A model generated the notes under the pieces. The model searched no databases, had not been told where the DNA came from, and was given only the letters and a program-made list of their open reading frames with translations. This document shows positions 4,597-28,672 of a DNA stretch of 64,000 bases, one piece after another (within the stretch, counting starts at the first letter, position 1; every line of letters starts with the position of its first letter). The stretch is from Frigoribacterium sp. PhB160 (GTDB taxonomy: Bacteria > Actinomycetota > Actinomycetes > Actinomycetales > Microbacteriaceae), in NCBI RefSeq assembly GCF_003751785.1, contig NZ_RKIE01000003.1, positions 124,001 through 188,000 of the forward strand. The letters are read 5' to 3'. The position numbers and the translations under genes were made by a program.

Positions 4597-4613
4597 CGTG
4601 CCCCTCCGATCAG

Positions 4614-4632
4614 TTAGGTGACCCTAACCCTA
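4614..4632. promoter_or_regulatory. DtxR/IdeR-type iron box
   Basis: The 19-mer TTAGGTGACCCTAACCCTA matches 15 of 19 positions of the classical DtxR/IdeR consensus (TTAGGTTAGSCTAACCTAA). It sits directly upstream of the heme oxygenase start and between that gene and the next minus-strand gene. Iron-loaded regulator would repress heme oxygenase here. This is inference from site quality and target function. Confidence 0.8.
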
Positions 4633-4711
4633 GCGAGGGAGGCGCGGGATGGCCACGGTCGCGCCCCCGAGTTCGCCGAGAAGACGGGATGGAGCGAGCC
4701 CCCGCGGAGGC

Positions 4712-5143: not shown

Positions 5144-5220
5144 CCCTCGATCATGCCAGGTGCGGCGGAGACGCGACCCGGCAGGGCACTCCCGGGGAGG
5201 CGCGGTGCCATCATCGGGGG

Positions 5221-11798: not shown

Positions 11799-11841
11799 CG
11801 CCAGGCACAGCACCACACGGCCGGAACGACGCTCCCGGCAC

Positions 11842-11886
11842 CACACCGAGCCCCGGACCGCACCCAGCGGCCCGGGGCTCGGTGTG
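11842..11886 (+). terminator. Terminator hairpin after surface-protein gene
   Basis: A 15-base perfect stem (11842-11856 with 11872-11886, loop of 15) begins 43 bases after the stop. There is no U-tract. It isolates the surface-protein gene from the kinase-headed polysaccharide operon. Confidence 0.8.
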
Positions 11887-11939
11887 CCCCGGCGAGGATC
11901 GAGCAGCGAAGGGCAATCTGGTGATGTCGCATTCGAAAT

Positions 11940-11950
11940 GTTAGTATCAT
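11940..11950 (+). promoter_or_regulatory. Candidate -10 element for polysaccharide operon
   Basis: A TTAGTATC block near 11941-11948 resembles the TTTAGTATT of the surface-protein promoter at 9463-9471 and lies about 50 bases before the GTG start. The -35 region is weak (TGGTGA at 11919-11924). The shared hexamer suggests co-regulation of the two units; this is inference. Confidence 0.45.
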
Positions 11951-11994
11951 CGCGTCCCTGACCTTCCTTCACATCCCGAGAACCGAGACTGCCT

Positions 11995-14678: not shown

Positions 14679-15778
14679 CCGCCGTCCTTCTCCTCGTCGG
14701 CCTGCTGACGGTCGCCACCGCGGTCGCCCCGGTCCTCGCCCGACCCGGCACCGTGCTCGAGGCCTGGCCGGGCGCCGTCGCGCCGCTGGCCGCCCTGACG
14801 GCGGCGACCGTCAGCTTCGCGGTGCTCGGAAACGGCCAGGTCGTCGACCGGCTCATCTACACCCGCGAGTTCCGAGTCATCGGCGGGGCCGACCTCGTCG
14901 ACGCCTTCTCCGCGCGGCTCGGCACCGGCGGCGAGCCGCTCTACGTCGCGTTCCTCTGGCTCGTGAGCCGGGCGGGCACCGACAGCACCGCCGGGCTGTA
15001 CACGGCGGTGGCGCTGGTGTCCGTGGCGGCGTTCGTGGCCGGGACGCGCCTCCTCGTCGGGTGGTCGCGCGTGCCGTACGTGCTGTTCACGGCCCTGGCG
15101 ATCGGCTTCTTCACGGCCTACGCCGGGCTCATCGTGCGGCAGGGCCTGTCGCTCGCAGCGCTCTACGTCGGCGTCTGCCTGGTGCTGCGCGGCTGCCGAT
15201 GGTGGACCTGGGCCGGCGCGTTCGCGGTGGCGAGCCTGTTCCACTGGTCGGCGGCGTTCGTCGTCGTGCTGATCTCGCTCGTCGTCGTGACGCGCCTGTC
15301 GCTCCGCACGGCGATCGCGGTCTGGACGGTCGCCGCAGGCCTCTTCGTGACGGGGCTCCAGCGCGCGCTGCTCGAGCCGCTCGCCGTGCTCGTGCCGGCG
15401 GTCGACGGCTACACCGGCAGCGCCGTGACCCACCAGTACGGCGGGTCGAACCGGCTCGACTTCCTCGCGTTCAGCGCGGTGTTCCTCCTCGCCGGGCTCG
15501 TGCTGCGGAGGGTCACGACCGTGCCCTCCTGGTACGACACCCTGCTCGTCGTCTACGCGGCGGCGAACACGTACTTCCTGGCCTTCGGGTTCATCGCCTA
15601 CGCCGACCGCCTCGCCGCGTACTCGTGGTACCTCGCGCCGCTGGTCGTCGCGGTGCCGCTGTTCGGGCTTCGCGGCCGGCTCGGACCGATCGTCGTCGTG
15701 CTCGCGACCGCGGTGCTCGTCGTCGCCGGGCTCGTCCGAGGGCCCTTCGCGCCGCTGCTGGGGCTCGCGGAGTGGTGA
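14675..15778 (+). CDS. EpsG/Wzy-like polysaccharide polymerase
   Basis: A 367-residue membrane protein with about 10 helices and the EpsG-family pattern: an EPLY motif (GTGGEPLYVAFLWLVSR) after helix 2, then a conserved-looking segment GLIVRQGLSLA in helix 5. It probably polymerises lipid-linked repeats outside the membrane. The GTG at 14675 overlaps the flippase stop (GTGA). It is convergent with the next gene, with a 16-base gap and no room for a long terminator. Confidence 0.8.
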   Translation: MTAVLLLVGLLTVATAVAPVLARPGTVLEAWPGAVAPLAALTAATVSFAVLGNGQVVDRLIYTREFRVIGGADLVDAFSARLGTGGEPLYVAFLWLVSRAGTDSTAGLYTAVALVSVAAFVAGTRLLVGWSRVPYVLFTALAIGFFTAYAGLIVRQGLSLAALYVGVCLVLRGCRWWTWAGAFAVASLFHWSAAFVVVLISLVVVTRLSLRTAIAVWTVAAGLFVTGLQRALLEPLAVLVPAVDGYTGSAVTHQYGGSNRLDFLAFSAVFLLAGLVLRRVTTVPSWYDTLLVVYAAANTYFLAFGFIAYADRLAAYSWYLAPLVVAVPLFGLRGRLGPIVVVLATAVLVVAGLVRGPFAPLLGLAEW

Positions 15779-15794
15779 GCGGGGCGTGGCATCC

Positions 15795-16673
15795 CTAGCG
15801 AGCGTCGGCGGCCACCGCGTCCGCGACCCCGCGCGGGGCGAACCCGAGCACCCGCCGCGCGAGCGACACGTCGGCGCACGACCAGCTGGCGACCGGCTCG
15901 GCCTCGACCCAGTGCAGCTCGTGCCGTACGCCGAGCGCCGCGACGAGCCCGCGGTTGCTGACCGCCTCCCCCGAGCCGACGTTCACGACGCCCGGCAGCT
16001 CGTCGCCGGCCTCGACCACGGCCGCGACGAGGGCCGCGACGTCGTCGCCGTGGACGTAGTCGCGCACGAACGAGTCGAGCCCGGCGAGCGCGACGGGCGC
16101 CTCCGGCGTCGAGGCGAGGAGGCGCGTCACCAGCGAGCGCCGGAACCCCGGCCCCCACGCGTTGAAGATCCGCAGCGCCACCGGCCGCACGCCCCCGCCC
16201 GCCGCGAGCCGGGCGGCGACGCCCTCCTCGGCGGCGAGCTTGAGCTCGGCGTAGCGACTGCCCGGGGCGGGCGGGGCGGTCTCGTCGGCGGGAGTGCGGC
16301 GCGCGTCGCCGTAGACCGCCGAGGTGGACGGCACGACGAGCGTGCGGCAGCCCACGGCGTCGGCGGCGTCGTAGAGGTCGAGCACGGCGTCGACGGTGAC
16401 CCGGCGGGCCGTCTCGGGGTCGGAGTCGCACTCGGCGGGCGAGACGCCCGCGGCGACCACGACGGCCGAGGGCCGGGTGTCGGCGAGCACCGCGGCGAGC
16501 GCCCGGCGGTCGGTCAGGTCGGCCACGACGTCGACCCCCGGGGAGGCGCGGCGCGCGACGCCCACGACGCCGTGCCCCCGGGCGCGCAGCCGGCCCGCCA
16601 CCGCGTGGCCGAGGCCTCCGCGCACGCCGACGACGACCACGGGGCCGTCCGGTCCCTCGAGCATCAGCAGCAC
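15795..16673 (-). CDS. NAD-dependent epimerase/dehydratase
   Basis: A 292-residue extended short-chain dehydrogenase acting on nucleotide sugars. The Rossmann motif VGVRGGLGHAV is near the N-terminus (the usual GxxGxxG). The catalytic Ser/Thr is in PSTSAVYGD and the catalytic pair is YAELK (Tyr/Lys three residues apart). The substrate loop has RIFNAWGPG. It is the only minus-strand gene inside the polysaccharide locus and probably has its own promoter in the 138-base divergent gap shared with the second tyrosine kinase. Sugar specificity cannot be read from sequence. ATG 16673 and 16664 are both possible starts. Confidence 0.85.
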   Translation of the reverse strand: MLLMLEGPDGPVVVVGVRGGLGHAVAGRLRARGHGVVGVARRASPGVDVVADLTDRRALAAVLADTRPSAVVVAAGVSPAECDSDPETARRVTVDAVLDLYDAADAVGCRTLVVPSTSAVYGDARRTPADETAPPAPGSRYAELKLAAEEGVAARLAAGGGVRPVALRIFNAWGPGFRRSLVTRLLASTPEAPVALAGLDSFVRDYVHGDDVAALVAAVVEAGDELPGVVNVGSGEAVSNRGLVAALGVRHELHWVEAEPVASWSCADVSLARRVLGFAPRGVADAVAADAR

Positions 16674-16811
16674 TCCTCACCTCGGCGCGACCGAGCCCGC
16701 CCAGGCTATCCGCTCGGGCAGCGGAGCCGACTCTTGTTCATCTTGACGGTGAAAGCTAAGATATCAACTCTAGATGAGCCATTCCCGCTCGTCACGACGA
16801 CCCGGAGCCCC
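16674..16811. promoter_or_regulatory. AT-rich divergent promoter region
   Basis: This 138-base gap separates the minus-strand epimerase from tyrosine kinase 2. From about 16732 it becomes markedly AT-rich, with TTGACG at 16743-16748, TAAGATATCAAC (16755-16766) and TCTAGAT. No -35/-10 pair with ideal spacing is evident. GATATC is a perfect palindrome that could be part of an operator. Confidence 0.45.
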
Positions 16812-18167
16812 ATGGACCTGCTGCCCCTCACCCGCGTCTCGCGCGCCTCCTGGCTCGTGCTCGCCGCCGGCACCGCCCTCGGGCTCGGAGCCGGCCTGGG
16901 CGCCGCCGCCCTCACGACACCGAGCTACACCGCCACGGCCGATCTCTACGTCGCGGTCGAGAGCGGCGCCGACGCCTCCGACCTCATCCAGGGCGGCACC
17001 GCCGCCGAGCAGAAGGTCCGCTCGTACGTCGAGATCGCCACGAGCGACCGCGTGCTCGCCCCCGTGGTGCACGACCTCGGGCTCGACCTCACCGTCCACC
17101 AGCTCGCCGACCGCGTCCGGGCCTCGACGCCGACCGAGAGCGTCATGCTCTCCATCAGCGTGACGACCACCGACCCGGCCGAGGCTGCGCGCCTCGCCGA
17201 CGCGGTCGCGGCCAGCCTGATCGAGGTCGTGACCGACGACCTCGAGGCGACCCCGGCCCGCGGCGCCGCCGCGCTCGCCCTGCACGCCCTCGGGCAGGCC
17301 GACGTGCCGACCCGGCAAAGCGCGCCCGACCACGTCGTGCACGCGGTCGGCGGAGCCCTCGGCGGCGCGGCCCTGGCCCTCGGCGCCGTGTCGGCGGCCG
17401 CGGCCGTCGACACCCGGGTGCGCACGCGCGTCGACCTCGACGAGGTCGACGACGGCCCCGTGCTCGGCGAGATCTCGTTCGACCGCCGCCTCGACGAGCG
17501 CGGGCTCGTCGTGCACACCGAGCCGCACAGCCCCACCGCCGAGAGCTACCGGCAGCTGCGCACCAACCTGCAGTTCCTCGACTTCGGGGCGACCGGGCGC
17601 AGCCTCGTCGTCACGTCGTCGGTGCCCGGAGAGGGCAAGAGCACGACGGCCGCCAACCTGGCGATCGCCCTCGCCGAGAGCGGGGCGCGCGTCGCGCTCG
17701 TCGACGGCGACCTCCGCCGGCCCCGCATCGCCGCGATGACCGGCGTGGAGGGGGCCGTCGGCCTCACCGACGTGCTCACCGGACGCCTGCCGCTCGACGA
17801 CGCCCTCCAGCCGTGGGGCACGGGCTCCCTCGTCGTCCTGCCCGCCGGCACGCTGCCCCCGAACCCGACGCAGCTGCTCAGCTCGCCGGCCATGCGGGCG
17901 GTGCTGACGGCGCTGACGGCCTCCGCCGACATCGTGATCGTCGACGCGCCTCCGCTGCTGCCGGTCACCGACGCGACCCTGCTCGCCAAGGTCACGGGCG
18001 GCGCCCTGCTCGCCGTGGGCGGCGGCCGCGTGTCGCGCCGCCAGCTCGCCCGCGCGCGGGCCGCCCTCGACGGCACGGGCAGCCGTCGCCTCGGCACCGT
18101 CCTGACCATGGCCCCGCCGAACCGAGCGGGCAGCTACGAGTACCGCTCCGAGAGGACCCCCGCATGA
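16812..18167 (+). CDS. Wzc-type tyrosine autokinase, copy 2
   Basis: A 451-residue second bacterial tyrosine kinase. The N-terminal membrane helix (residues 14-34) and Wzz-like domain precede a second helix near residues 178-200. Walker A is PGEGKSTTAANLA, Walker A' VALVDGDLRRPR, Walker B IVIVDAPPLLPVTD. The C-terminal cluster is SYEYRS, again only two tyrosines, and it lacks the Arg-rich extension of copy 1. It is followed by its probable antagonist, a tyrosine phosphatase, through an ATGA overlap. Two kinases but one phosphatase suggests two export branches or heteromeric control. Confidence 0.92.
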   Translation: MDLLPLTRVSRASWLVLAAGTALGLGAGLGAAALTTPSYTATADLYVAVESGADASDLIQGGTAAEQKVRSYVEIATSDRVLAPVVHDLGLDLTVHQLADRVRASTPTESVMLSISVTTTDPAEAARLADAVAASLIEVVTDDLEATPARGAAALALHALGQADVPTRQSAPDHVVHAVGGALGGAALALGAVSAAAAVDTRVRTRVDLDEVDDGPVLGEISFDRRLDERGLVVHTEPHSPTAESYRQLRTNLQFLDFGATGRSLVVTSSVPGEGKSTTAANLAIALAESGARVALVDGDLRRPRIAAMTGVEGAVGLTDVLTGRLPLDDALQPWGTGSLVVLPAGTLPPNPTQLLSSPAMRAVLTALTASADIVIVDAPPLLPVTDATLLAKVTGGALLAVGGGRVSRRQLARARAALDGTGSRRLGTVLTMAPPNRAGSYEYRSERTPA

Positions 18168-18772
18168 CCCCGATCCGCCTCCTGGTCGTCTGCACCGGCA
18201 ACCTCTGCCGGTCGCCGATCGTCGAGCACGCCCTCCGCCGCCTTCTCCCCGACGACGGGAGCGTCGTCGTCCGCAGCGCCGGCACCCGCATCGCGTCGGG
18301 GCGTGAGGCGCCCGGGCAGACCCTCCGGGCGGGGGCGCGGCTCGGGCTCGACCTGCACGGCCACCGCACGACCTCGCTCACGGCCGCGGACGTCGCCTCC
18401 GCCGACCTCGTGCTCGGCGCGGCCCGGGAGCACCGCCGGGCCGTCGTGTCGCTCGAGCCGCGGGCGCTGCGGCGCACCTTCACGCTGCGCGAGCTCGGCC
18501 GGGTCGTCGCGTCGGGCGCGACGCACCCGCTCGTCGAGGTGCCTGCCGCCGACCCGGCCGACCGCGTCGCCGCGTGGGTCGCCGCGATGAGCGCCCTGCG
18601 CGGGTCGACCACGCGTCCGGCCCGGCCGGAGGACGACGACGTCGTCGACCCGTGGGGCCAGGCCGACGACGTGTTCGACCAGGCGCTCGCCCAGCTGACG
18701 CCGTCGGTCGAGGTCGTCGCCGGCGCGCTCGGCACGCTGCTCGCCGCGCCGCGCGACGGAGGGGTCTCGTGA
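18164..18772 (+). CDS. Low-molecular-weight protein tyrosine phosphatase
   Basis: A 202-residue phosphatase with the P-loop VCTGNLCRSP (Cys-x5-Arg) at the N-terminus and the general-acid loop DPWGQ near residue 161. It would dephosphorylate the C-terminal tyrosines of the adjacent Wzc-type kinases, completing the usual Wzc/Wzb cycle. It overlaps the kinase (ATGA) and the following glycosyltransferase (GTGA), so the three form one translationally coupled unit. It is slightly longer than typical Wzb (about 150 residues) because of a central insert before the acid loop. Confidence 0.93.
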   Translation: MTPIRLLVVCTGNLCRSPIVEHALRRLLPDDGSVVVRSAGTRIASGREAPGQTLRAGARLGLDLHGHRTTSLTAADVASADLVLGAAREHRRAVVSLEPRALRRTFTLRELGRVVASGATHPLVEVPAADPADRVAAWVAAMSALRGSTTRPARPEDDDVVDPWGQADDVFDQALAQLTPSVEVVAGALGTLLAAPRDGGVS

Positions 18773-19590
18773 GCGCCCACGTCCGGGCGGCGAGGTCGGC
18801 GGGTCCCCTGCCGATGAGCGTCGTCATGCCGACCATGCGCGCCGACCGCCATCTCGCCACGGCCGTGCGGTCGGTGCTGCGAGACGCCGTCGAGGAGCTC
18901 GAGCTCGTCGTCGTCCTCGACGGGCTCGATCCTCGCGACGTCGACCTGCCCCGTGACGACCGCCTGCGCGTCGTCGCCCTGCCCGAGCGGCGAGGGACGC
19001 CCGCCGCGCTGAACGCCGGTGCCGCCGCGGGCACGGGCCCGCTGATCGCCCGGCTCGACGCCGACGACGTCGCCCTGCCCGGTCGCTTCGAGGCGCAGCG
19101 GGCCGAGTTCGCCCGGCGACCCGGCCTGGTCTGCCTCGGCTCGTCCGTCTCGCTGATCGACGACGACGACGCCCCCGTGGGCGCCTGGCCCGCCGCCACC
19201 GGACCCGGCCTCGCCGAGGCCCTGCTGCGGCGCAACGTCTTCGTGCACTCGTCGACGGTCTACCGGCGCGCCGCGTTCGAGGCGGTCGGCGGCTACGACG
19301 AGCGCTGCACTCGGATGCAGGACTACGAGCTCTGGCTGCGGCTCGCCACGACCGGAGAGCTCGACTCGCTGCCGGAGGTGCTCACCGCCTACCGCGTGCA
19401 CCCCGGGCAGCACAGCCGCAACACGCCGCCCTGGGGCGCGCCCGCCCGGCAGGTGCGGGCCTCGCGGCTCGCCCTGGCGCGCCACCTCGGCCGCCCGACG
19501 CCGGTGCAGCACGTCGAGAACGCCGCGTGGAGCGCCGCGCAGGCGCTGCGGCACACGGGGCTGCGTCGGTCCGCGTACCTCCGCACCTGA
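18769..19590 (+). CDS. Family 2 glycosyltransferase
   Basis: A 273-residue GT-A fold glycosyltransferase. It has SVVMPTMRADRHLATAVRSV at the nucleotide-binding N-terminus, the metal-binding ARLDADDVALPGR (DxD type), and the acceptor-side motif GGYDERCTRMQDYELWLRL, with ED replaced by QD. It probably adds one sugar to the lipid-linked repeat on the cytoplasmic face. The GTG start overlaps the phosphatase stop. It ends the second tyrosine-kinase operon; an 8-bp hairpin follows in the next gap. Confidence 0.88.
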   Translation: MSAHVRAARSAGPLPMSVVMPTMRADRHLATAVRSVLRDAVEELELVVVLDGLDPRDVDLPRDDRLRVVALPERRGTPAALNAGAAAGTGPLIARLDADDVALPGRFEAQRAEFARRPGLVCLGSSVSLIDDDDAPVGAWPAATGPGLAEALLRRNVFVHSSTVYRRAAFEAVGGYDERCTRMQDYELWLRLATTGELDSLPEVLTAYRVHPGQHSRNTPPWGAPARQVRASRLALARHLGRPTPVQHVENAAWSAAQALRHTGLRRSAYLRT

Positions 19591-19666
19591 GGCGACTGCC
19601 CGGCGGTGCGCGTGCGCGGCGCGCACGGCGTGCTGCGCACGGCCGACGGACGGGTGCACGACGCCC

Positions 19667-19757
19667 GGATCGTGAGGCATCCGCACGATCCCTGGTCACC
19701 GATATACGTACGTGATATTCTTCCACTCAATCTGAATCTCGATCACTTTGGAGGCGT
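19667..19757 (+). promoter_or_regulatory. Terminator hairpin plus AT-rich promoter
   Basis: An 8-bp stem (19667-19674 with 19684-19691) probably ends the upstream operon. It is followed by an AT-rich palindromic patch, ATATACGTACGTGATAT near 19700-19716, whose GATATT could be a -10 element. A strong ribosome site TTGGAGG precedes the ATG at 19759. This would be the promoter of the dehydratase-epimerase-transferase operon. Confidence 0.5.
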
Positions 19758-19758
19758 C

Positions 19759-20805
19759 ATGCCCACCACCCGCCGTCCGTGCACGTGCCCCGGCTCGTCG
19801 AGGCCGACCCTGGACGAGCTCCTCGGCCGCACCGCATCCCCCGCCCCGCTCGAGGTCGACGCCTCGGTCGTCGCCGGCAAGCGCGTGCTCGTGACGGGCG
19901 CCGGCGGCTCGATCGGAGGCGAGCTCGCCCGCCAGGTCGCGGGCCTCGGCCCCGCCGAGCTGCTGCTGCTCGACCGCGACGAGACCGCGCTGCAGCAGAC
20001 GCAGGTCGCCGTCTCGGGCCACGGCCTGCTCGACACCCGCGACGTGGTGCTCGTCGACATCCGCGACGCCGATGCCGTCCGCCAGGTCTTCGCCGCCCGG
20101 CGCCCCGAGGTCGTCTTCCACGCCGCCGCCCTCAAGCACCTGCCGATGCTCGAGCAGTACCCCCTCGAGGGCTGGAAGACGAACGTGCTCGGCACGCTCA
20201 ACGTCCTCCGCGCCGCGGAGGAGACGGACGTCGAGCGCTTCGTCAACATCTCGACCGACAAGGCGGCCGACCCGATCAGCGTCCTCGGCACGACCAAGCG
20301 CCTCGCCGAGCGGCTCACGGCCGACACGGCCGCGCGCACCGCTCGCCGCTACGTCTCGGTCCGCTTCGGCAACGTCTTCGGCAGCCGGGGCTCGCTGCTG
20401 CCCCTGCTCGAGTCGCTCATCGCCGCCGGTCGCCCGGTCACCGTCACGCACCCCGACGCCACCCGGTACTTCATGTCGATCCCCGAGGCGTGCCGGCTCG
20501 TGCTGCAGGCCGCCGCCGTCGGCTCGCCCGGCGAGGTGCTCGTGCTCGACATGGGCGAGCCCGTCCGCATCCTCGACGTGGTCGAGCGGGTCGTGGCGCG
20601 CAGCGGCCGCCCGGTCGAGATCGTGTTCACCGGCCTCCGTCCCGGCGAGAAGCTGCACGAGGTGCTGTCGTCCGCCGACGAGGCGAGCGAGGCCCGCGTC
20701 CACCCGCAGATCTCGCACTGCACCGTGCCGCCCCTCGCGGCCGACGACCTCTCGACCGACCTCCTCGTCCGTCCCGTGACGAGCGCCCAGCTGGCCGCCG
20801 CGTGA
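19759..20805 (+). CDS. UDP-sugar 4,6-dehydratase (FlaA1/CapD-like)
   Basis: A 348-residue soluble nucleotide-sugar dehydratase/epimerase of the short FlaA1/CapD type. An N-terminal extension (PTLDEL, residues 20-45) precedes the Rossmann motif VTGAGGSIGGELARQ. The catalytic region has NISTDKAADPISVLGTTKR, where the usual Tyr of YxxxK is replaced as in the FlaA1/CapD group. C-terminal markers are RFGNVFGSRGS, RYFMSIPEA and TGLRPGEKLHE. It probably makes a 4-keto-6-deoxy precursor for a rare amino sugar. The ATG with TTGGAGG is clearly better than the ATG 153 bases upstream. It overlaps the next gene by 4 bases. Confidence 0.9.
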   Translation: MPTTRRPCTCPGSSRPTLDELLGRTASPAPLEVDASVVAGKRVLVTGAGGSIGGELARQVAGLGPAELLLLDRDETALQQTQVAVSGHGLLDTRDVVLVDIRDADAVRQVFAARRPEVVFHAAALKHLPMLEQYPLEGWKTNVLGTLNVLRAAEETDVERFVNISTDKAADPISVLGTTKRLAERLTADTAARTARRYVSVRFGNVFGSRGSLLPLLESLIAAGRPVTVTHPDATRYFMSIPEACRLVLQAAAVGSPGEVLVLDMGEPVRILDVVERVVARSGRPVEIVFTGLRPGEKLHEVLSSADEASEARVHPQISHCTVPPLAADDLSTDLLVRPVTSAQLAAA

Positions 20806-21821
20806 GGATCGCCGTCACCGGCGCGACCGGCTTCGTCGGCCGCCACGCCTGCGCCCGCCTCGCCGCCCGGGGACACGACGTGACCGCCCTGGTCCGCCGC
20901 GCCTCCACGGCCCCGGCCGGCACCCGCGAGGTCGTCCTCGGCGACCTCGACGGGTCGGCCGTCCCCTCGGCAGCCCTCGGCCGGCTCGACGCCGTCGTCC
21001 ACCTCGCCGCGCGCGTGCACGTGATGCGCGACAGCTCGGCCGACCCGCTCGCGGAGTTCCGCCGGGTCAACGTCGACGGCACCCTCGCCCTCGCCCGGGC
21101 GGCCGTCGCCGCAGGCGTCCCCCGCCTCGTGTTCGTCAGCAGCGTCAAGGTGCTCGGCGAGCGGGCCGGCGACGGCACCTCCGCCTTCCGCGTCGGCGAC
21201 GCACCCGCGCCCGTCGACCCCTACGGCGTCTCGAAGCACGAGGCCGAGCAGGCCCTGCGCACCCTCGCCTCGGCCACCGGCCTCGGGGTCGCCGTCGTGC
21301 GGCCGCCCCTCGTGCACGGCCCCGGCGTCGGCGGGAACGTCGCGCGCATCGCCCGCCTCGTACGGGCCGGTGTGCCCCTGCCCCTCGGCGCGGTCGACAA
21401 CGCGCGCACCATGGTCTCGGTCCGCACGCTCGCCGCCGTCCTCGAGGGCGCCGCCGTCTCCCCCGACGCCGCGGGGGCCACCGTCCTCGCGGCCGACTCC
21501 CGCTCCTTCTCGTCCGCCGAGCTCGCCCGCCTCCTCGGCGACGGGCTCGGCCGGCCCGCCCGGCTCGTGCCCGTGGCGCCGGCCCTGCTGCGCGCCGCCG
21601 GCCGCGCGACCGGCCGCCTCGACGACGTCGACCGCCTCACCTCGTCGCTGCGCGTCGAGCCGGGCTCGAACACTGCGTTCTCGTGGGTCGAGGAGTCCGA
21701 CCCGGCCGACGAGCTGCGCGCGACCGGCGCGTGGTTCCGGTCGGGGCCGAGTGCCCACGCCCGGCCCGCGTCCGCGTCCGCGTCCGCCGACGTCATCGCA
21801 CCGCGGGGAGGCGCGGCGTGA
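20802..21821 (+). CDS. NAD-dependent epimerase/dehydratase (WbpV/GalE-like)
   Basis: A 339-residue extended SDR. TGATGFVGRHAC forms the NAD site, FVSSVKVLGE carries the catalytic Ser, and PYGVSKHEAE the Tyr-x3-Lys pair. VVRPPLVHGPGVGGN follows. The pattern resembles 4-keto reductases or 4-epimerases that act just before an undecaprenyl-phosphate sugar-phosphate transferase, as in the WbpV/WbpL or FnlA-like pathways. Position supports this: it lies between the 4,6-dehydratase and the initiating transferase, with GTGA overlaps on both sides. A short Ala/Ser repeat tail ends the protein. Confidence 0.87.
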   Translation: MRIAVTGATGFVGRHACARLAARGHDVTALVRRASTAPAGTREVVLGDLDGSAVPSAALGRLDAVVHLAARVHVMRDSSADPLAEFRRVNVDGTLALARAAVAAGVPRLVFVSSVKVLGERAGDGTSAFRVGDAPAPVDPYGVSKHEAEQALRTLASATGLGVAVVRPPLVHGPGVGGNVARIARLVRAGVPLPLGAVDNARTMVSVRTLAAVLEGAAVSPDAAGATVLAADSRSFSSAELARLLGDGLGRPARLVPVAPALLRAAGRATGRLDDVDRLTSSLRVEPGSNTAFSWVEESDPADELRATGAWFRSGPSAHARPASASASADVIAPRGGAA

Positions 21822-24223
21822 GCCCCGCACAGACCGCCCTGCTGACCGGCCTGGTCGCCCTGGCCCTCCCGTCGGTGCTGCTGCCCGTCCTGCGGCGCGC
21901 CGGCGCGGTCGACGTCCCGAGCCACCGGTCGTCGCACACGGCGACGGCCGTCCGCGGCCTCGGCGCCGCCACCACGCTCGCCGTCGCGGTCGGCCTCGGC
22001 GGAGCGCTCGCCCACGTCGCCGACCCCGCCCACCGCTGGATGCTCGCCGTCGTCGGCGTCGGCTCCGTCGTCGCGGCCCTGGTGGGGCTGGCCGAGGACG
22101 TGCGGGGGGTCTCGGTCTCCACGCGCCTCCTCTCGCACCTCGCGGTCGGCGCGGCGGCCACCGCGGCCCTCGTCCTGCCCGCCGGCGGGTCGCCTCTGCT
22201 CGTGCCGCTCGGCGCCGTCGCGGTCGCGGGCTTCGTCAACGCCGCCAACTTCATGGACGGCGTCGACGGCATCACGGGGCTGCACGGCATCGTCTTCGGC
22301 GCGAGCACCGCGGTGCTCGGCGCCTGGTCGGGCCACGAGTGGCTCACCGGCACCGGGCTCGTCACGGCGGCGGCGTTCGCGGCCTTCCTGCCGTGGAACC
22401 TCTCCGGCCGCCGGCTCTTCCTCGGCGACAGCGGCAGCTACCTGCTCGGCGCCGTCACCGCGCTCTCGGTCGTCGCGGCCCTCGCCGTCGGCGTGCCCGC
22501 CGTCGCCGCGGTCGGCGTGCTCGCGCCGTACCTGGCCGACACGGGCGTGACGTTCCTCCGACGGGTCGCGTCGGGCGCCCGCTGGAGCGAGCCGCACCGC
22601 GACCACGTCTTCCAGCGCCTGACGCACTCGGGCCTCGGCCACCTCCGGGCCGCCGCGGTGACCACGGTCGCCTCGGCGCTCAGCGGCGGGCTGTCGATGA
22701 TCGCGCTGCAGGGCTCTCTCGCGGCCTCGGTCGCCGGGGCCGGCGGGGCGCTCGTCGTCGCCGCGGGGTACCTCGCGACCCCGCGGGTGCTGGCGTGGGG
22801 TCGGGGCGCCGAGGCCGGGGCTGCCGTCGCCGGCGGCTCGGCCGGTGCTGCCGCCGCGGGACCGACGGGAGCGGGGCCGGGGGCCGCGCCGCGCCTCCTC
22901 GTCCTCGAGTCGATCGACCTCTGCGTGCACTCGCACTTCGCCGGGCAGCTCGCCGAGCTGCGCCGCCGCGGCGTCGACCCCGTCGTGCTCACCCGCGACA
23001 CGGGCCTGCTCGCCGACGTGCTCGCCACCGACGGCGTGCGTGGCCTCGACCTCGACATCGCCCGCGACCCCTCGGTGCTCGGCGACCTGCGGACGCTCGT
23101 CGCGATCGTCCGGGTGATCCGCCGCGAGCGACCCGTCGGCATCGTCTCGGGCACCCCGAAGGCGGCCCTGCTCGGGGCGGTCGCGGGCTGGCTGACCCGC
23201 GTGCCCGTGCGGGTGCACCTGCTGCTCGGCCTGCGCGTCGAGACCATGACGGGCCTCGGCCGCGTGGCGCAGCTCGCCGCGGAGCGCCTCACCGTCCGCC
23301 TCAGCACCGAGACCGTCGCCGTCGGCGAGGGCATGCGGCGTCGCGCCGTCGAGCTGGGCCTCGACCTGCGGGAGGCGCAGGTCGTCGGCCGCGGATCCGC
23401 CAACGGCGTCGACGTGGCCCGGTTCGCCGCCGCGGGGCACGAGCTCGCGTCCGACCCGGGGTCGGACGTCGGCTCGGGCACGGGGTCCGGGCTGGACCCG
23501 GACGTCGGCTCGGGCACGGACGCGCTCGTCCGGTCCGAGGCCGGGCTGGGTCGGACGCAGGCCGCGCGTCGCGTCGTCGGGCTCGCCCCGGAGCCCGAGG
23601 GCCCGGTCGTCGGCTTCGTCGGACGTCTCGCCGTCGACAAGGGACTCGACTGCCTCGTCGCCGCGGTGCGGCGCATGCGGGCCGACGGCGTCCCCGCGCA
23701 GCTCGTACTCGTCGGGCCGGACGACGGCGTCGACCACCTCGCCCCCGAGACCCGGGCCGCCCTCGGCGAGCCCTGGGTCGTGCGGCCGGGGCTGGTCACC
23801 GACACCGCGTCCGTCTACGCCGCCTTCGACGTCTTCTGCCTGCCCAGCCGCCGTGAAGGGCTGCCGACGGTCGTCCTCGAGGCCGCCGCGGCCGGCGTGC
23901 CGGTCGTCGTCTCGGACGCGACCGGGACGGCCGACACCGTCGACGACGGCCGCACCGGGCTGATCGTGCCGGTCGACGACGTCGAGGCGTGGGCGGCGGC
24001 GGTCGCGGGGGTCCTCGGCGACCCGGGAGGCGCCTCCCGGCGTGCCGTCCTGGGGCGCGAGTTCGTGCGCGAGCACTTCGCCGCCGAGGTCGTGCGACAG
24101 CGGTACTGCGACCTCTACGAGCGACGCCTGCGCGCCGCGGGGGCGGTGCTCCGGGCGCCGTCGGCCGACCCGGCGCCGGCCCACGCCCCGGCCTCGGGCC
24201 CGGCACAGCCCGACCTGACCTGA
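21818..24223 (+). CDS. Fused WecA-like sugar-1-P transferase and GT4 glycosyltransferase
   Basis: An 801-residue two-domain protein. Residues 1-330 are a polytopic MraY/WecA-family transferase with NAANFMDGVDG (141-151), FLGDSGS (201-207) and HRDHVFQRL (260-268). It would load the first sugar phosphate on undecaprenyl phosphate. An Ala/Gly linker (331-357) leads to a GT-B GT4 domain (358-775) with GFVGRLAVDKG and the EX7E pair E680/E688 in EGLPTVVLE, expected to add the second sugar. A Gly/Ser/Asp repeat insert (545-568) lies in the middle of the GT4 domain. These activities are normally separate proteins; I see no frameshift or hidden start joining them. The stop codon lies in a CCTGA pentamer repeat. 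Confidence 0.9.
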   Translation: MSPAQTALLTGLVALALPSVLLPVLRRAGAVDVPSHRSSHTATAVRGLGAATTLAVAVGLGGALAHVADPAHRWMLAVVGVGSVVAALVGLAEDVRGVSVSTRLLSHLAVGAAATAALVLPAGGSPLLVPLGAVAVAGFVNAANFMDGVDGITGLHGIVFGASTAVLGAWSGHEWLTGTGLVTAAAFAAFLPWNLSGRRLFLGDSGSYLLGAVTALSVVAALAVGVPAVAAVGVLAPYLADTGVTFLRRVASGARWSEPHRDHVFQRLTHSGLGHLRAAAVTTVASALSGGLSMIALQGSLAASVAGAGGALVVAAGYLATPRVLAWGRGAEAGAAVAGGSAGAAAAGPTGAGPGAAPRLLVLESIDLCVHSHFAGQLAELRRRGVDPVVLTRDTGLLADVLATDGVRGLDLDIARDPSVLGDLRTLVAIVRVIRRERPVGIVSGTPKAALLGAVAGWLTRVPVRVHLLLGLRVETMTGLGRVAQLAAERLTVRLSTETVAVGEGMRRRAVELGLDLREAQVVGRGSANGVDVARFAAAGHELASDPGSDVGSGTGSGLDPDVGSGTDALVRSEAGLGRTQAARRVVGLAPEPEGPVVGFVGRLAVDKGLDCLVAAVRRMRADGVPAQLVLVGPDDGVDHLAPETRAALGEPWVVRPGLVTDTASVYAAFDVFCLPSRREGLPTVVLEAAAAGVPVVVSDATGTADTVDDGRTGLIVPVDDVEAWAAAVAGVLGDPGGASRRAVLGREFVREHFAAEVVRQRYCDLYERRLRAAGAVLRAPSADPAPAHAPASGPAQPDLT

Positions 24224-24240
24224 CCTGACCTGACCTGACC
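24208..24240 (+). repeat. CCTGA pentanucleotide repeat across stop codon
   Basis: About five tandem copies of CCTGA run from roughly 24210 through 24239, and the stop of the transferase fusion is the first in-frame TGA. Because 5 and 3 share no factor, the tract places a TGA in all three frames, so slippage could only alter the last few residues. Confidence 0.85.
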
Positions 24241-24275
24241 ACCCTCCATCCCCTCCGTCCTGAAAGGACCCCACC

Positions 24276-24749
24276 ATGCTCAAGCGCACCCCCTTCCTCA
24301 TCTCGCTGCTCGTCCTCGGCTCGCTGACCGTGGCCGGCTGCACCTCCGCCGACGACGACGCCGCCCCGGCGCCCACGGACGTCGCGACCGACTCCGCCGC
24401 GGACGAGGCCGCCGACGACTTCGACCTCGAGGGCCTGACCGCCGCCGAGCGCGAGCAGGTCGAGCCGACCGGCGCGTGCATCGACGGCTACGCGATCATC
24501 CGGCCCGTCGACACGGAGTTCACGCAGCCCGAGCCCTGCGACACCGTCTCGGTGCTCGGCACCGGCTCGACCATCACGCTGACCGACGTGGACCACCTGC
24601 TGCTCGAGTCGGGCCCGAACACGATCACCGTCACGGGCGGCCTCGACTCGATCATGAGCATCGCCTCGGGCAACGAGGTCACGTACGACGGACCGGCGGT
24701 CGAGCCCGAGGACTCGGGCAGCGACAACACGTTCACGAACGTCGGCTGA
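24276..24749 (+). CDS. DUF3060-like lipoprotein
   Basis: A 157-residue lipoprotein. It has signal sequence MLKRTPFLISLLVLGSL and lipobox VAGCT with the lipidated Cys near residue 22, followed by an acidic Ala/Asp-rich linker. The C-terminal half has the parallel-beta pattern GTGSTITLTDVDHLLLESG, then NTITVTGGLDS and GSDNTFTNVG, typical of DUF3060-type repeats. Function unknown; probably an envelope protein. A good ribosome site (GAAAGGA) precedes the ATG. It lies 52 bases after the transferase fusion and may be the last gene of that operon. Confidence 0.85.
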   Translation: MLKRTPFLISLLVLGSLTVAGCTSADDDAAPAPTDVATDSAADEAADDFDLEGLTAAEREQVEPTGACIDGYAIIRPVDTEFTQPEPCDTVSVLGTGSTITLTDVDHLLLESGPNTITVTGGLDSIMSIASGNEVTYDGPAVEPEDSGSDNTFTNVG

Positions 24750-24792: not shown

Positions 24793-24852
24793 GAACCGCG
24801 TTCCGAGCCATGAACTGCGTTCCTCCGCGGTTCATGGCTCGGAACGCGGTTC
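24793..24852. repeat. Perfect 23-bp inverted repeat between convergent genes
   Basis: Arms at 24793-24815 and 24830-24852 are perfectly complementary, with a 14-base loop. The unit GAACYGCGTTC occurs twice in the left half (24793 and 24811). It sits between convergent genes and is long enough to be a bidirectional terminator, but the internal repetition and perfect arms also fit a mobile palindromic intergenic element. Confidence 0.9.
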
Positions 24853-24924: not shown

Positions 24925-25710
24925 CTACGCGAGCAGGTCCGTGGCGAGGTACCCGGCGTACCCGCCGCGCGTCCGCCCGACGCGTCGTCCGGAGGTCAGC
25001 ACCTCGCCCGCCTCCGACGCGACGATCGACGCCCCCGAGGCGCGGAGCCGCTCCACGAGCGTCACGTCCTCGTGCAGGTCGAGGTCGCCGAACCCCCCGG
25101 CGGCCAGGTACGCCGAGGTCGCCACCCCGAGGTTCGCCCCGTGCACGTGCCCGTTCGGCCGCCCCGGGGTGTGCCGCGACGTCCACGCCGCGATCTGCTC
25201 GGGCGAGAGGTCGGCGAAGTCGGGCCGGACCGTCCCCACCACCACCTCGGCGCCCTCCCGCGCCAGCTCGACCTGCGACGTCAGCCACGTCTCGGGCACC
25301 GCGGAGTCGGCGTCGGTGTTGGCGATCCAGGTGCGTTGCGGGTCGACGCCGAGCAGCTCGAGCTCGGCGAGGGCCCTCGCCACCCCCAGCGACCGGGCCA
25401 GCCCGACGTTGCGGACGCGCGCCTCGACCACCGTCACGCCGGGCGCCAGCCGGGCGACGGCGGCGGTGTCGTCGGTGCAGTCGTCGGCCACGACGACGAC
25501 CACGACCCGCGCCTCCTCGTGTCCGGGGACTCGGGCGGGCTCGCCGTCGGCGGGGCACGACCCGGACAGCCGGAGGCGCGCCCGGCCGATCGAGGCCAGG
25601 CACCTCCCGATGAGCGCCGCCTCGTCACGGGCGGGGACGACGACCGCGATCCCGAGCAGCTCGGGTCGGACACCGCCCGAGGGGGTGTCGAGGCCGATCG
25701 AGCCGGTCAC
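24925..25710 (-). CDS. Family 2 glycosyltransferase
   Basis: A 261-residue GT2 enzyme. The N-terminal motif is AVVVPARDEAALIGRCLAS, the nucleotide/metal motif WIANTDADSAVPETW, and the acceptor loop HVHGANLGVATSAYLAAGGF followed by LHEDVTLVERLR (ED catalytic pair). It has no membrane helices. The GTG at 25710 overlaps the upstream deacetylase/methyltransferase stop (GTGA), and it is the third gene of a coupled operon. It probably uses a sugar nucleotide to build the compound that the deacetylase and methyltransferase then modify. Confidence 0.88.
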   Translation of the reverse strand: MTGSIGLDTPSGGVRPELLGIAVVVPARDEAALIGRCLASIGRARLRLSGSCPADGEPARVPGHEEARVVVVVVADDCTDDTAAVARLAPGVTVVEARVRNVGLARSLGVARALAELELLGVDPQRTWIANTDADSAVPETWLTSQVELAREGAEVVVGTVRPDFADLSPEQIAAWTSRHTPGRPNGHVHGANLGVATSAYLAAGGFGDLDLHEDVTLVERLRASGASIVASEAGEVLTSGRRVGRTRGGYAGYLATDLLA

Positions 25711-27257
25711 CGGAGACCCGTCCGCTCGGCGACCGACCGGCCGTCGCGCGACACGACGTCGAGGAGGAAGTCCGCCTCGACGTGCTGCACCACCCGGGTC
25801 AGCCCGGAGCGGTGCGCCTCCGCCGCGAGCGCCGCGTGCACGGCGTCGCCGCTCTGCGCGAAGTCGCCCTCGTCGTGCCGCCAGTGGCACGCGACGATCG
25901 AGCCGCCCGGCGCGAGCGCGCCGGCGACCGACGACAGCAGGGCCGTCAGCGCCTCGGGCTCGAGGTAGTAGCCGACCTCCCCGATCACGACGAGGTCCCA
26001 GCGGCCCTCGGGCAGCCCCTCGGAGGCGTCGGCCTGCTCGACGCGGACGTGTCGTCGGTCGGCGAGGCGGGCCCGGGCGCGCTCCACGGCGACGGGCGAG
26101 ACGTCGAGCGCGAGGACGCGGTCGGCCCGGTCGGCGAGCTCGGAGGTCACGACGCCGATCGAGCAGCCGATCTCGAGCACTGCTCCGTACCGCTCGTCGG
26201 GCAGCGCGCCCAGAACGAGCGACCGCTTGCGCCGCTCGTACCAGCGCGTCGTCACGCCCCACGGGTCGTCGCGGCGGGCGTGCGTGTCGTCGAAGCGCGC
26301 CGGGTCGGCGGCGGGGTCGTGCGGCCCGCGAGCGTCGGGCGCGGCGGGGTCGGGCGCGGCGGCGGCAGACGCGGGGGCGACAGGTGCGGGGGCGACAGGT
26401 GCAGCGGCGACAGGTGCAGCGGCGACGCGCGCCACCGTGACCGTGACGTGCTCCAGCGCCGCCGTCGCCACGGGCTCGACGACGAAGACCTCCTCGCGGG
26501 AGAAGTGCTCCGCGAAGTCCGGGCGCAGCACCGCCTCGTCGCCGGGAGCCGGGGAGAGGGGACGGAGCTGGCTGACGTACCGGGCGAGGGCGCGCTGCTT
26601 GGCGCCCCGCGCCTCCTCGTCGGTCGTCGCGTGCACCAGGTCGGCCCACGGCACGTCCGGGTGCCCCGGGTCGGCCCAGTGCCACATCCAGATCGGGTAG
26701 CCGAGGAGGCGCGGCGCGGCCGACCGCGCACCCTCGCCCCCGGTCTCGGCCGGGAGCTCGGCGACGACGGCGGCCGCGATCTCGCCGAGCACCCGGTGGT
26801 CGCGGTGCCCGTCGCCGCGCCACGGGGCGAGCAGCAGCCCGGGGCGCCGGTCGCGGAGCAGGTCGGCCACGCGGGCGTGGACCTCGTCGCGGTGCTCGCG
26901 CAGGGCTCCGTCGGGCACGCCGAGGGCGACCACCTCGACGGCGGGGCCGAGCTCGGCGGCGGCGGCCCGCGCCTCCTCGAGGCGGAGGTCGCGGAGCGCG
27001 GCCCGGTCGACGGTCGACGAGTCGGGGTGGGAGGCGGCTCCGTCGGTGACCACGACGACCGTGACCGGCCGTCCGGCGGCGGCCGCGGTGGCGATCAGGG
27101 CGCCGGCCCCGAGGGTCTCGTCGTCGGGGTGGGCGGCGAGCACGACGACGGGCCCGTGCCCGCGCGGGTCGACCTCGGCGAGGGCGCCGAGGGCGAGGCG
27201 CGGGTCGGCGGCCCACACGGCGGAGGGCGTGCCGGCCTCGCGGGCGTCGAAGCTCAC
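25707..27257 (-). CDS. PIG-L deacetylase fused to SAM methyltransferase
   Basis: A 516-residue bifunctional protein. The N-terminal part is a zinc LmbE/PIG-L deacetylase: LAAHPDDETLGAGAL (HPDDE) near residue 40, and PWRGDGHRDHR supplying the distal His ligands. A Pro/Ala/Val linker (about 275-320) encoded by a 15-bp tandem repeat joins it to a class I methyltransferase with motif I VLEIGCSIGVVTSEL and motif IV WDLVVIGEVGYY, similar to NodS-like N-methyltransferases. A plausible role is to remove an N-acyl group and methylate the amine on the same molecule. The GTG at 27257 overlaps the acyl-CoA dehydrogenase-like stop. Confidence 0.92.
   Translation of the reverse strand: MSFDAREAGTPSAVWAADPRLALGALAEVDPRGHGPVVVLAAHPDDETLGAGALIATAAAAGRPVTVVVVTDGAASHPDSSTVDRAALRDLRLEEARAAAAELGPAVEVVALGVPDGALREHRDEVHARVADLLRDRRPGLLLAPWRGDGHRDHRVLGEIAAAVVAELPAETGGEGARSAAPRLLGYPIWMWHWADPGHPDVPWADLVHATTDEEARGAKQRALARYVSQLRPLSPAPGDEAVLRPDFAEHFSREEVFVVEPVATAALEHVTVTVARVAAAPVAAAPVAPAPVAPASAAAAPDPAAPDARGPHDPAADPARFDDTHARRDDPWGVTTRWYERRKRSLVLGALPDERYGAVLEIGCSIGVVTSELADRADRVLALDVSPVAVERARARLADRRHVRVEQADASEGLPEGRWDLVVIGEVGYYLEPEALTALLSSVAGALAPGGSIVACHWRHDEGDFAQSGDAVHAALAAEAHRSGLTRVVQHVEADFLLDVVSRDGRSVAERTGLR
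26371..26430 (-). repeat. 15-bp tandem repeat encoding interdomain linker
   Basis: Four 15-base units (26371, 26386, 26401 and 26416) encode Ala-Pro-Val repeats in the linker between deacetylase and methyltransferase domains. The first three share a GGCGACAGGT core and the last is degenerate. Unit loss or gain keeps frame and changes linker length. Confidence 0.85.
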
Positions 27258-28531
27258 CACGGGTCGACGCCCGTGGGGGCCGCGTCGGGTGCGGCGGGTG
27301 CGGCGGGTGCGGCCGGGGCGGCGGCGGCGGCGAGGGCGCGGTCGCGGTCGCGGACCGCCCCGCCGAGCGACGCGTCGTCCTTCTCGGCGTGGTGCTGGCG
27401 CAGGTAGAGCTCGAGGTCGGCGACGCGCTTGGCGTGCGCGGCGTCGGACGCCAGGGGTGCCGGGCCGAGCGCGTGGGCGACCGCGGCCAGGACGTCCTCG
27501 GCGGCGTGCGCGACGGAGCCGCGCACCCGCTTCGCGAGCAGGCGCCCCTCGGCGCCCGACGCGGCCCCGGCGTCGACGAGCCCGGCGGCCTCGGCGAGCG
27601 CGCGTCGGGCGTCGCCGAGCCGCTCGTCGACGACGCCCAGCGCGCGGAGCAGCCACGGGTCGGGGTCGCGGCGCACCGCGGCGGCGTGCAGGGCGCGGGC
27701 GACGCCCACCGCTCCGCCGTACCAGCACGACGCGACGCCGATGCCGCCCCACTCGAACCCGGCGCGGCGCAGGTACCAGCCGGGCGCCCCCACGGGGAAC
27801 GCCTCGACTTCGTCGAACCGCACGGGCCCCGAGGGGATCTCGGCCATGCCACGGGCGTGCCACGCCCCCGCGACGACCTCGACGCCGGGCTGGCGCAGGT
27901 CCACCGCGAAGAGGCGGCGCTCGTCGCCGACCCAGGCCGTGACGAGGGCGCCGTCGAGCTCGCCGGCGAGCGAGCACCACGGCTTCTCGCCGGAGAGCAG
28001 CCAGGCGGGAGCGGGTGCGTCGGCCGTGGGGGCCGGGTGGGCGGCGTCGGGGGCGGGTGTCGGGGAGGCGGGCCGCGCCTCCTCGTCGACCTCGGCGGTG
28101 GTCGGCGAGGTGAGCCGGGCCTCCAGTCGGGGCGCCGCCCCGGGGGGAGCCTCGGCGGCGAAGACACCCCAGGTGAAGCCCGACGAGGAGGCGCGGGCCG
28201 GCAGCACGACGCCGGTCGCCTCGCCCGTCGTGCCCCGGCCGAGGCCCGCGTCGGCGGTGCGCGCGGCGTCGGCGGCCTGCCTCAGGATCGCGACCGCGTC
28301 GAGGTGCGGCTCGACGGCCCGGGCGAGCGCGACGTCGTGGGCGGCGAGGGAGGCGAGCGCGCGCCAGAGGTCGGCGGTGTGGCCGGTGCCGGGGACGGGG
28401 GTCGGGGTCGCGGGGTCGGTGGCGGAGGTGAGGTCGGCGGCGAGGGCGAGGGCCTCGGCGACGGAGTCCGGGAGGTGGTCGGCGACTCGTCGGGTGATCG
28501 TCCCGTGGTCGGAGGCGCGGGAGAGCTGCAT
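27254..28531 (-). CDS. Acyl-CoA dehydrogenase-like flavoprotein
   Basis: A 425-residue protein with the acyl-CoA dehydrogenase fold. There is an all-helical N-terminus and a beta domain including WLLSGEKPWCSLAG and PGWYLRRAGFEWGGIGVASCWYGGAVG, then a C-terminal helical bundle. It is divergent from classical enzymes and has a Pro/Ala-rich insert near residue 150 and a low-complexity tail, so the substrate need not be a CoA ester. It is the first gene of a three-gene overlapping operon with deacetylase-methyltransferase and GT2. ATG 28531 is the first start. It is divergent from the hydrolase gene. Confidence 0.85.
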   Translation of the reverse strand: MQLSRASDHGTITRRVADHLPDSVAEALALAADLTSATDPATPTPVPGTGHTADLWRALASLAAHDVALARAVEPHLDAVAILRQAADAARTADAGLGRGTTGEATGVVLPARASSSGFTWGVFAAEAPPGAAPRLEARLTSPTTAEVDEEARPASPTPAPDAAHPAPTADAPAPAWLLSGEKPWCSLAGELDGALVTAWVGDERRLFAVDLRQPGVEVVAGAWHARGMAEIPSGPVRFDEVEAFPVGAPGWYLRRAGFEWGGIGVASCWYGGAVGVARALHAAAVRRDPDPWLLRALGVVDERLGDARRALAEAAGLVDAGAASGAEGRLLAKRVRGSVAHAAEDVLAAVAHALGPAPLASDAAHAKRVADLELYLRQHHAEKDDASLGGAVRDRDRALAAAAAPAAPAAPAAPDAAPTGVDPW

Positions 28532-28567
28532 CCTCTGACCGTAGGCCCCCGTGAGGCATGCTCGATC

Positions 28568-28584
28568 CGTGTCCGGGGGACACG
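28568..28584. promoter_or_regulatory. 17-bp palindrome in divergent promoter
   Basis: CGTGTCC-GGG-GGACACG is a perfect dyad with 7-base arms. It lies 37 bases upstream of the acyl-CoA dehydrogenase-like start and 89 bases upstream of the hydrolase start, so one regulator could control both units. No regulator gene is adjacent. Confidence 0.5.
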
Positions 28585-28672
28585 TCTCGGTGACAGCCCA
28601 CCAGACCGACAGGCGGGGCGGGTACGAACGGGAGGCGTGGGGCGCGGACGCGCTCCCGGGAAGGCAGACATC

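Follow-up and report, generated by a model that had tools for sequence, protein, structure and literature searches.

What do the three overlapping genes at positions 24925-28531 of a 64,000-nucleotide stretch of Frigoribacterium sp. PhB160 (contig NZ_RKIE01000003.1, positions 124,001 to 188,000; the whole stretch is referred to as the window) make, and do they work together? An earlier note on this DNA had described them as an operon of a flavin dehydrogenase-like gene, a fused deacetylase-methyltransferase and a glycosyltransferase (GT), linked by exact 4-base overlaps. The features concerned are as follows.

27254-28531, minus strand: gene A, ATG start, 425 amino acids; a protein of the acyl-CoA dehydrogenase (ACAD) fold and probable flavoprotein, first gene of the unit.
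25707-27257, minus strand: gene B, GTG start, 516 amino acids; PIG-L de-N-acetylase fused to a NodS-like S-adenosylmethionine (SAM) methyltransferase (MT).
26463-27257, minus strand: PIG-L part of gene B, residues 1-265; PF02585 at residues 38-164 (2e-28).
25710-26297, minus strand: NodS-like methyltransferase part of gene B, residues 321-516; matches PDB 4isc_A (2.3e-40) and NodS 3ofj (3.4e-13).
24925-25710, minus strand: gene C, GTG start, 261 amino acids; single-domain GT2 glycosyltransferase.
28532-28672, no strand: divergent intergenic stretch of 141 bases, containing a palindrome at 28568-28584.

The gene ends and both overlaps (A/B and B/C, each GTGA) are exactly as had been claimed and the three genes form one operon-like unit, 4-base overlaps being by themselves ordinary in operons. 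The domain calls (ACAD-like, PIG-L-methyltransferase fusion, GT2) also agree with the Pfam matches, that of gene A being borderline (Acyl-CoA_dh_M, 33.2 bits for a gathering score of 33.3). The cassette of A, PIG-L, MT and GT is a real and widespread biosynthetic unit, unstudied as far as the open literature was searched: in line with the earlier remark that no product is assigned, no functional study of it was found in the open PMC literature, subscription papers and preprints being outside the search.

Within the genus, a strong gene-B match was found in 16/16 genomes searched, and A, PIG-L, MT and GT were all present in the 12/12 loci examined (L005-L016). From a genome collection, the best 80 of at least 473 gene-B relatives were taken, with loci chosen by B and not by A or GT; all 80 belong to Actinomycetota or to unplaced actinobacterial metagenome-assembled genomes, and 79 of them show the order A-PIGL-MT-GT on one strand, the contig of the remaining locus (L070) ending before the GT. 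When 197 genomes sampled evenly over the class were searched with profiles of A (cut-off E 1e-10) and of the GT (E 1e-20), A was found in 37 and GT in 35, with both in 34 (hypergeometric probability 1.6e-33, a value that ignores relatedness). In these 34 shared genomes, the two genes always shared a contig and were never more than 4.5 kb apart, and 36 of the 37 A places adjoin a gene-B match as judged by eye, the exception being that of genome G017. The gene linkage is therefore far beyond chance, and where the earlier note had named a lack of co-conservation elsewhere as the way in which its proposal could fail, neighbourhood comparison revealed strongly co-conserved genes.

The neighbours were surveyed by clustering 1244 likely open reading frames (ORFs) from 108 loci, with flanks of at most 7 kb for most and with each genome or plasmid locus without a name counted as its own genus label. 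B, GT and A recurred over 39, 37 and 34 genus labels respectively; the next family (9 labels) is an antisense ORF over gene B and the next real families, an ABC ATPase and a ferritin-like protein, reach 8. No further gene family was found to be kept with the cassette among the 108 loci at the partial recall of the ORF picker, which called A in just 65 of them; since it missed real genes, a fifth member under weaker conservation may have gone unnoticed. The substrates of the pathway are apparently common ones.

Plasmids gave access to other phyla. Among 72,556 plasmid records searched, A matches were present in 30, including 19 from Acinetobacter, and in 30/30 a gene-B match lay at most 1 kb away (by eye); the hosts include Acinetobacter, Pandoraea, Legionella, Novosphingobium, Sulfitobacter and Deinococcus, and gene order varies. 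Annotated copies are those of Kitasatospora, Acinetobacter soli, Deinococcus gobiensis (GT on the other strand), Roseomonas, Sphingomonas, Pandoraea, Legionella lytica, Sulfitobacter faviae, Paracoccus and Novosphingobium, a Methylobacterium copy being recognised by profile only, as was the unannotated GT of the Kitasatospora and Pandoraea copies. The GT comes first in Sphingomonas, Paracoccus and Methylobacterium, and A comes last in Legionella. Deacetylase and methyltransferase are separate genes in 10/10 annotated copies and, consequently, gene B is a fusion of two partners. Similar neighbours in scattered bacteria had been mentioned in the earlier note; other bacteria do have them, but the statement fell short of the spread of the cassette, which is found in three phyla.

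Variant forms were also observed. On a Rubrobacter indicoceani plasmid, where no PIG-L was detected by profile, the cassette is made up of a CE4 deacetylase, gene A, a methyltransferase, a ferredoxin-reductase-like protein and a GT; the CE4 protein, matched best in NCBIfam by NodB (113.4 bits, cut-off 240), occupies the place where PIG-L would be. The ferredoxin-NAD reductase-like gene lies within this cassette (L047 6561-7763; best NCBIfam match 199 bits, cut-off 650) and its product is a possible electron donor for gene A. In Sulfitobacter indolifex and Gloeothece, the annotation gives GT, methyltransferase and polysaccharide deacetylase as parts of a single protein, and the domain scan of the S. 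indolifex fusion agrees (GT2, NodS-like, PgaB-like), while single proteins of Mesorhizobium and Sinorhizobium B11 match both the GT and MT profiles. The viral relatives (27 loci) are nearly all PIG-L alone; methyltransferase pieces adjoin the PIG-L domain in viral contigs L021 and L032, around 4400-5775.

As to what each protein does, the PIG-L part of gene B matches PF02585 with 99.9 bits for a cut-off of 28.2 (2e-28), and its residues H43, D45, D46, H151, D153 and H154 are invariant in 23 sequences, with HPDD and HxDH intact in the 10/10 plasmid homologues checked. These residues match the motif given for the PIG-L family in PMC4101496, in which HXDD and H provide the metal ligands and base, in addition to a catalytic H/D pair. 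The N-terminal part of gene B is accordingly a predicted PIG-L/LmbE-like metal-dependent deacetylase. It scores 60.2 bits against BshB1 (2.3e-16, cut-off 182.5), 22.4 bits against Mca (cut-off 277.15) and 22.0 bits against MshB (cut-off 224.35), and falls short of all these equivalogs. The C-terminal part matches Methyltransf_25 (PF13649, 1.5e-15) and NodS (4.1e-15) in Pfam, with E362, G364, G368 and D385, which we take to be the SAM motif, invariant in 23 sequences, and is, judging from domain and motif residues, a class I SAM methyltransferase. The closest solved chain is 4isc_A, whose molecule name is just 'Methyltransferase', followed by NodS 3ofj; against the NodS equivalog it reaches 71.3 bits (8.4e-20), below the cut-off of 300.

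Gene C is a GT2 glycosyltransferase, with a match to Glycos_transf_2 (PF00535, 4.9e-11), structural matches of the GT-A fold for its model (predicted local distance difference test, pLDDT, 92.1; predicted template modelling score, pTM, 0.89) and a DxD-type pair, D133 and D135, invariant in 37 sequences. Its structural neighbours include chondroitin, heparosan, hyaluronan and TarP/TarS enzymes using N-acetylglucosamine (GlcNAc) or N-acetylgalactosamine (GalNAc). NodC (TIGR04242) is not among its 5 NCBIfam matches at E <= 0.01.

With the AlphaFold2 model of gene A (pLDDT 87.8, pTM 0.86), Foldseek gave DszC as the best match (3.3e-11) and KijD3 (4kcf) at 4.0e-10 with TMq 0.65, acyl-CoA dehydrogenases being similar, and the identity to DszC, TdsC and KijD3 is only 15-19%. 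The ACAD fold was confirmed with VIA-align (best match 2dvl, Z 30.4, root-mean-square deviation 2.8, 326 aligned), where Z values are nearly tied between dehydrogenases (30.4), TdsC (29.4) and DszC (29.2) and where KijD3 is not among the 50 matches listed. The fold of the proposed 'flavin dehydrogenase-like' protein is thus present, but the YEG-type catalytic Glu of acyl-CoA dehydrogenases appears to be absent. Near its usual site, Q379 is invariant in 37/37 actinobacterial sequences, and the same Gln is found in 11/11 plasmid homologues, in a motif resembling DLxxYLRQ; it stands at the Glu column or one residue before, the column being uncertain by one in an alignment holding 13 of the 37 sequences. 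The position after it is variable, with Glu in a single one of the 37 sequences (L086). Among ACAD-family comparators of the same genome, Glu was present in L137 and L138 and not in L139 and L140. The G-x-K-x-x-x-S, which we take to be part of the flavin-site region, is kept in 37/37 and 11/11 sequences, and the RxxFG and GG regions, presumably with a role in binding flavin adenine dinucleotide (FAD), seem lost in an alignment judged by eye. Gene A may be a monooxygenase or oxidase, the structural comparisons favouring neither oxygenase nor dehydrogenase. At its C-terminus (window 27254-27262), Pro-Trp or Ala-Trp forms the last two residues in 28 of the 37 aligned proteins, although the linkers before it vary.

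These assignments, together with the shared inheritance of the overlapping genes, suggest, with about an even chance in our estimation, that the cassette is a cytosolic and self-contained pathway to an N-methylated, oxidised amino-sugar conjugate, its enzymes acting in turn on a common substrate. The GT2 would transfer an N-acetylated amino sugar, most simply GlcNAc from uridine diphosphate-GlcNAc (UDP-GlcNAc), to an acceptor that bacteria of widely differing kinds possess. The PIG-L domain would then take off the acetyl group and the NodS-like domain would N-methylate the freed amine. Last, the ACAD-fold flavoprotein would oxidise or hydroxylate the product, plausibly on that nitrogen or beside it. 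Since the cassette looks self-contained, mass spectrometry of a laboratory strain made to express it may show what the product is.

Several observations weigh against this N-methyl amino-sugar pathway. Fucosyl, rhamnosyl and mannosyl transferases also match the gene C structure with close scores, and likeness to NodS does not prove N-methylation. In the methyltransferase tree, the four NodS rows form their own clade (support 100/100) with gene B outside; the branching does not settle how NodS and the cassette are related, and an origin of NodS from inside the cassette family is not claimed. Among 18 class loci examined, in a selection deliberately including odd ones, 6 are without PIG-L beside the other genes; 3 of those 6 genomes have a 44-46% identical PIG-L elsewhere and 3 have a weak match or none. 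In genome G017, gene A stands alone, with no other cassette gene; in G081 and G184, which contain A and B, no GT was found at E 1e-20. No GT was seen beside the Roseomonas copy, and in Paraburkholderia L048 and D. proteolyticus L049 the profiles detected MT and GT but neither A nor PIG-L. The GT match of G151 is divided into two pieces, and no A accompanies B and GT in G029, where B is situated at a contig end. The gene A of G017 (L145 4998-6935) lies directly downstream of a ferritin-like gene and near signal peptidase, multicopper oxidase and BrkB genes.

The domains could also serve in tailoring the cell envelope. The GT would then act on a glycan attached to lipid or polymer (exopolysaccharide, teichoic acid or glycolipid), and the other enzymes would modify the added amino sugar so as to alter the surface charge. 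The cassette adjoins an exopolysaccharide-like region in the window, extra GTs occur near two Deinococcus loci, together with glf, and in Novosphingobium, the trifunctional fusions are found among GTs and ABC transporters, one of them beside a sulfotransferase, and the profile matches of gene C in the PDB include ArnC and DPMS. However, no polysaccharide gene was conserved with the cassette in the 108-locus survey, and the Pfam scan found no membrane domain in the three window proteins (no transmembrane prediction was run). We regard envelope tailoring as unlikely, yet as an explanation to be taken seriously.

It is improbable that the cassette makes a specialised metabolite, a signal or an antibiotic, whose N-methyl amino sugar is N-oxidised in the manner of nitrososynthase (KijD3) pathways. 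The Foldseek matches of gene A do have KijD3 near the top, but ordinary dehydrogenases match gene A equally well, no nucleoside diphosphate-sugar (NDP-sugar), scaffold, exporter or resistance gene was conserved in the 108 loci, and the presence of gene B in 16/16 genus genomes is unlike typical specialised clusters. BtrD presumably has a role in aminoglycoside synthesis. In favour of a specialised product, BtrD is named as a PIG-L enzyme in PMC4101496.

Quite improbable is a pathway of just GT, PIG-L and MT in which gene A would be an ACAD paralogue that has lost catalysis and serves in structure or regulation. The missing YEG-type Glu, the RxxFG and GG regions that look lost by eye and the presence of MT and GT without A in L048 and L049 would fit such a paralogue; against it, A is linked as tightly as the other cassette genes, with its G-x-K-x-x-x-S and its Gln conserved in all 37 and 11 sequences.

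The pairing of a GT with PIG-L is the first half of the mycothiol and bacillithiol pathways. An analogous low-molecular-weight thiol or redox-cofactor pathway is nevertheless very improbable in spite of this pairing and of the BshB1 match (2.3e-16), as the BshB1, Mca and MshB scores are far below cut-off, no further enzyme and therefore no cysteine ligase was conserved with the cassette in the 108-locus survey, and genes for Mca (over cut-off) and for an MshB-like protein (165 bits, cut-off 224) lie elsewhere in the genome, for which reason mycothiol itself was rejected.

For the proposed N-methyl amino-sugar conjugate, a lead on function comes from expression data in Pseudomonadota. Table 2 of PMC5660220 gives A. 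baumannii ACICU_02432-02435 as one operon (GT, methyltransferase, LmbE, acyl-CoA-dehydrogenase-related), down 31-62-fold in two colistin-dependent mutants alongside otsA, otsB and catalase, among 33 such genes by the paper's count. This operon was likened to the cassette by annotation and same order, sequences having been compared for other Acinetobacter copies only. Because these data group the matching operon with genes for trehalose and catalase, its product may have a part in surviving stress. In two further papers, a GT, a methyltransferase, an LmbE-like protein and an acyl-CoA dehydrogenase are named beside blsA (PMC6240043), and LmbE, GT and methyltransferase are STRING-predicted partners of BlsA (PMC9948694). 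Annotated Pseudomonadota plasmid loci with this MT type, NodS and trifunctional loci aside, have a stress-related neighbour in 9/9 cases (L045, L048, L133-L136, L167-L169) under a generous reading and with no control, the neighbours being trehalose enzymes, catalase, Dps, BrkB, CsbD, YqjD, YsnF/AvaK and LigD/DUF3606.

For Actinomycetota, 40 arbitrary 15-kb stretches from 11 genomes served as control. Ferritin was found near 15/98 cassettes compared to 0/40 controls (p 0.004, uncorrected and for families chosen after being seen), whereas BrkB (4/98), GH15 (7/98) and GH13 (5/98), each with 0/40 in controls, were not significant; queries for catalase, otsA and otsB, taken from Pseudomonadota, had no match in the cassette or control set, their sensitivity being possibly low. 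A conserved stress island in Actinomycetota was rejected, as contexts differ and ferritin alone is nominally enriched, and the weak stress link in this phylum is a further point against a stress product. A stress role is thus a lead from Pseudomonadota. We tentatively propose, as an idea that we think has a real if minor chance of being right, an undescribed class of intracellular stress metabolite, an N-methyl and possibly N-oxidised amino-sugar conjugate of a universal acceptor (for instance a disaccharide, polyol or lipid). A single portable cassette of four domains, distributed across at least three phyla, would make it, and certain hosts would express this cassette together with trehalose and catalase genes. 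If true, such a metabolite would be a stress counterpart of Nod-factor chemistry. That Frigoribacterium, Acinetobacter and Deinococcus alike have kept this compact pathway together, with no product found assigned in the open literature, points to a bacterial compound that is common but has been overlooked so far.

Concerning the surroundings of the genes, the 7+7 palindrome CGTGTCC-ggg-GGACACG is present at 28568-28584, and had been taken as a hint of a dedicated regulator. A 7+7 palindrome with a spacer of 0-10 occurs in 177/1000 first-order-Markov shuffles of the intergenic stretch and in 147/453 pieces of the window of 141 bases each, and the motif, with any 3-base spacer, was in none of the loci compared save L001 and L005, which are copies of the same place as the window cassette. 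Because its frequency is at chance level and it was not found in sister strains, the palindrome gives no such hint and was rejected as an operator. A 27-base inverted repeat, 96% complementary, lies between convergent genes at window 24793-24852; its half-site has 15 genome matches at up to 2 mismatches (6 pairs and 3 singles), the reversed control having 0, and the repeat belongs to a small family of intergenic palindromes. The exopolysaccharide-like region adjoining the cassette (window 9621-24749) contains two ORFs with ParA/AAA and Wzz matches, one Wzz being below cut-off, a Polysacc_synt_2 protein and a glycosyltransferase fusion. At 21683-24223 on the plus strand, a single 846-amino-acid ORF combines Glycos_transf_4 (WecA/MraY-type, 123-265) with a group-1 glycosyltransferase (641-780).

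Compared with known systems, the cassette resembles the Nod-factor enzymes NodC/NodB/NodS in that GT, de-N-acetylase and NodS-like methyltransferase are encoded together, and in that the deacetylase of the Rubrobacter indicoceani cassette is a NodB-like CE4 protein. It differs from them by its PIG-L deacetylase, by a GT of one small domain without a NodC match at E 0.01, by an extra ACAD-fold protein, by the absence of any NodA acyltransferase seen and by the conserved neighbours of its MT, which are A, PIG-L and GT and not nod genes. In Rhizobium IRBG74, N-methylation by NodS takes place only after deacetylation (PMC5080398). With mycothiol and bacillithiol synthesis (MshA-MshB, BshA-BshB), the cassette has in common a GT and a PIG-L deacetylase with conserved metal site, but it lacks a conserved thiol-forming partner and its equivalog scores are far below cut-off; MshA and BshA are, we assume, GT4 enzymes, whereas the cassette has a GT2. 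The resemblance to mycothiol, Nod-factor or amino-sugar chemistry suggested earlier therefore stands for the deacetylase and methyltransferase as enzymes, and not for mycothiol itself. Gene A shares its fold, and the lack of a YEG-type catalytic Glu, with the monooxygenases DszC, TdsC and KijD3, but identity is low and dehydrogenases fit it equally. The A. baumannii operon has the four functions in the same order by annotation, in four separate genes, to which PMC5660220 assigns no function. The trifunctional GT/SAM methyltransferase/polysaccharide deacetylase proteins, so named by NCBI product name, have the same three activities in one chain, but with CE4 and not PIG-L, with no gene-A homologue found nearby and with MT domains forming their own clade. 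Because the NodS, NodC, MshB and Mca tests fail, the cassette is a member of neither the Nod-factor nor the thiol system; by analogy, it would work like NodC-NodB-NodS, or like the GT and PIG-L start of thiol synthesis, with a flavin step added.

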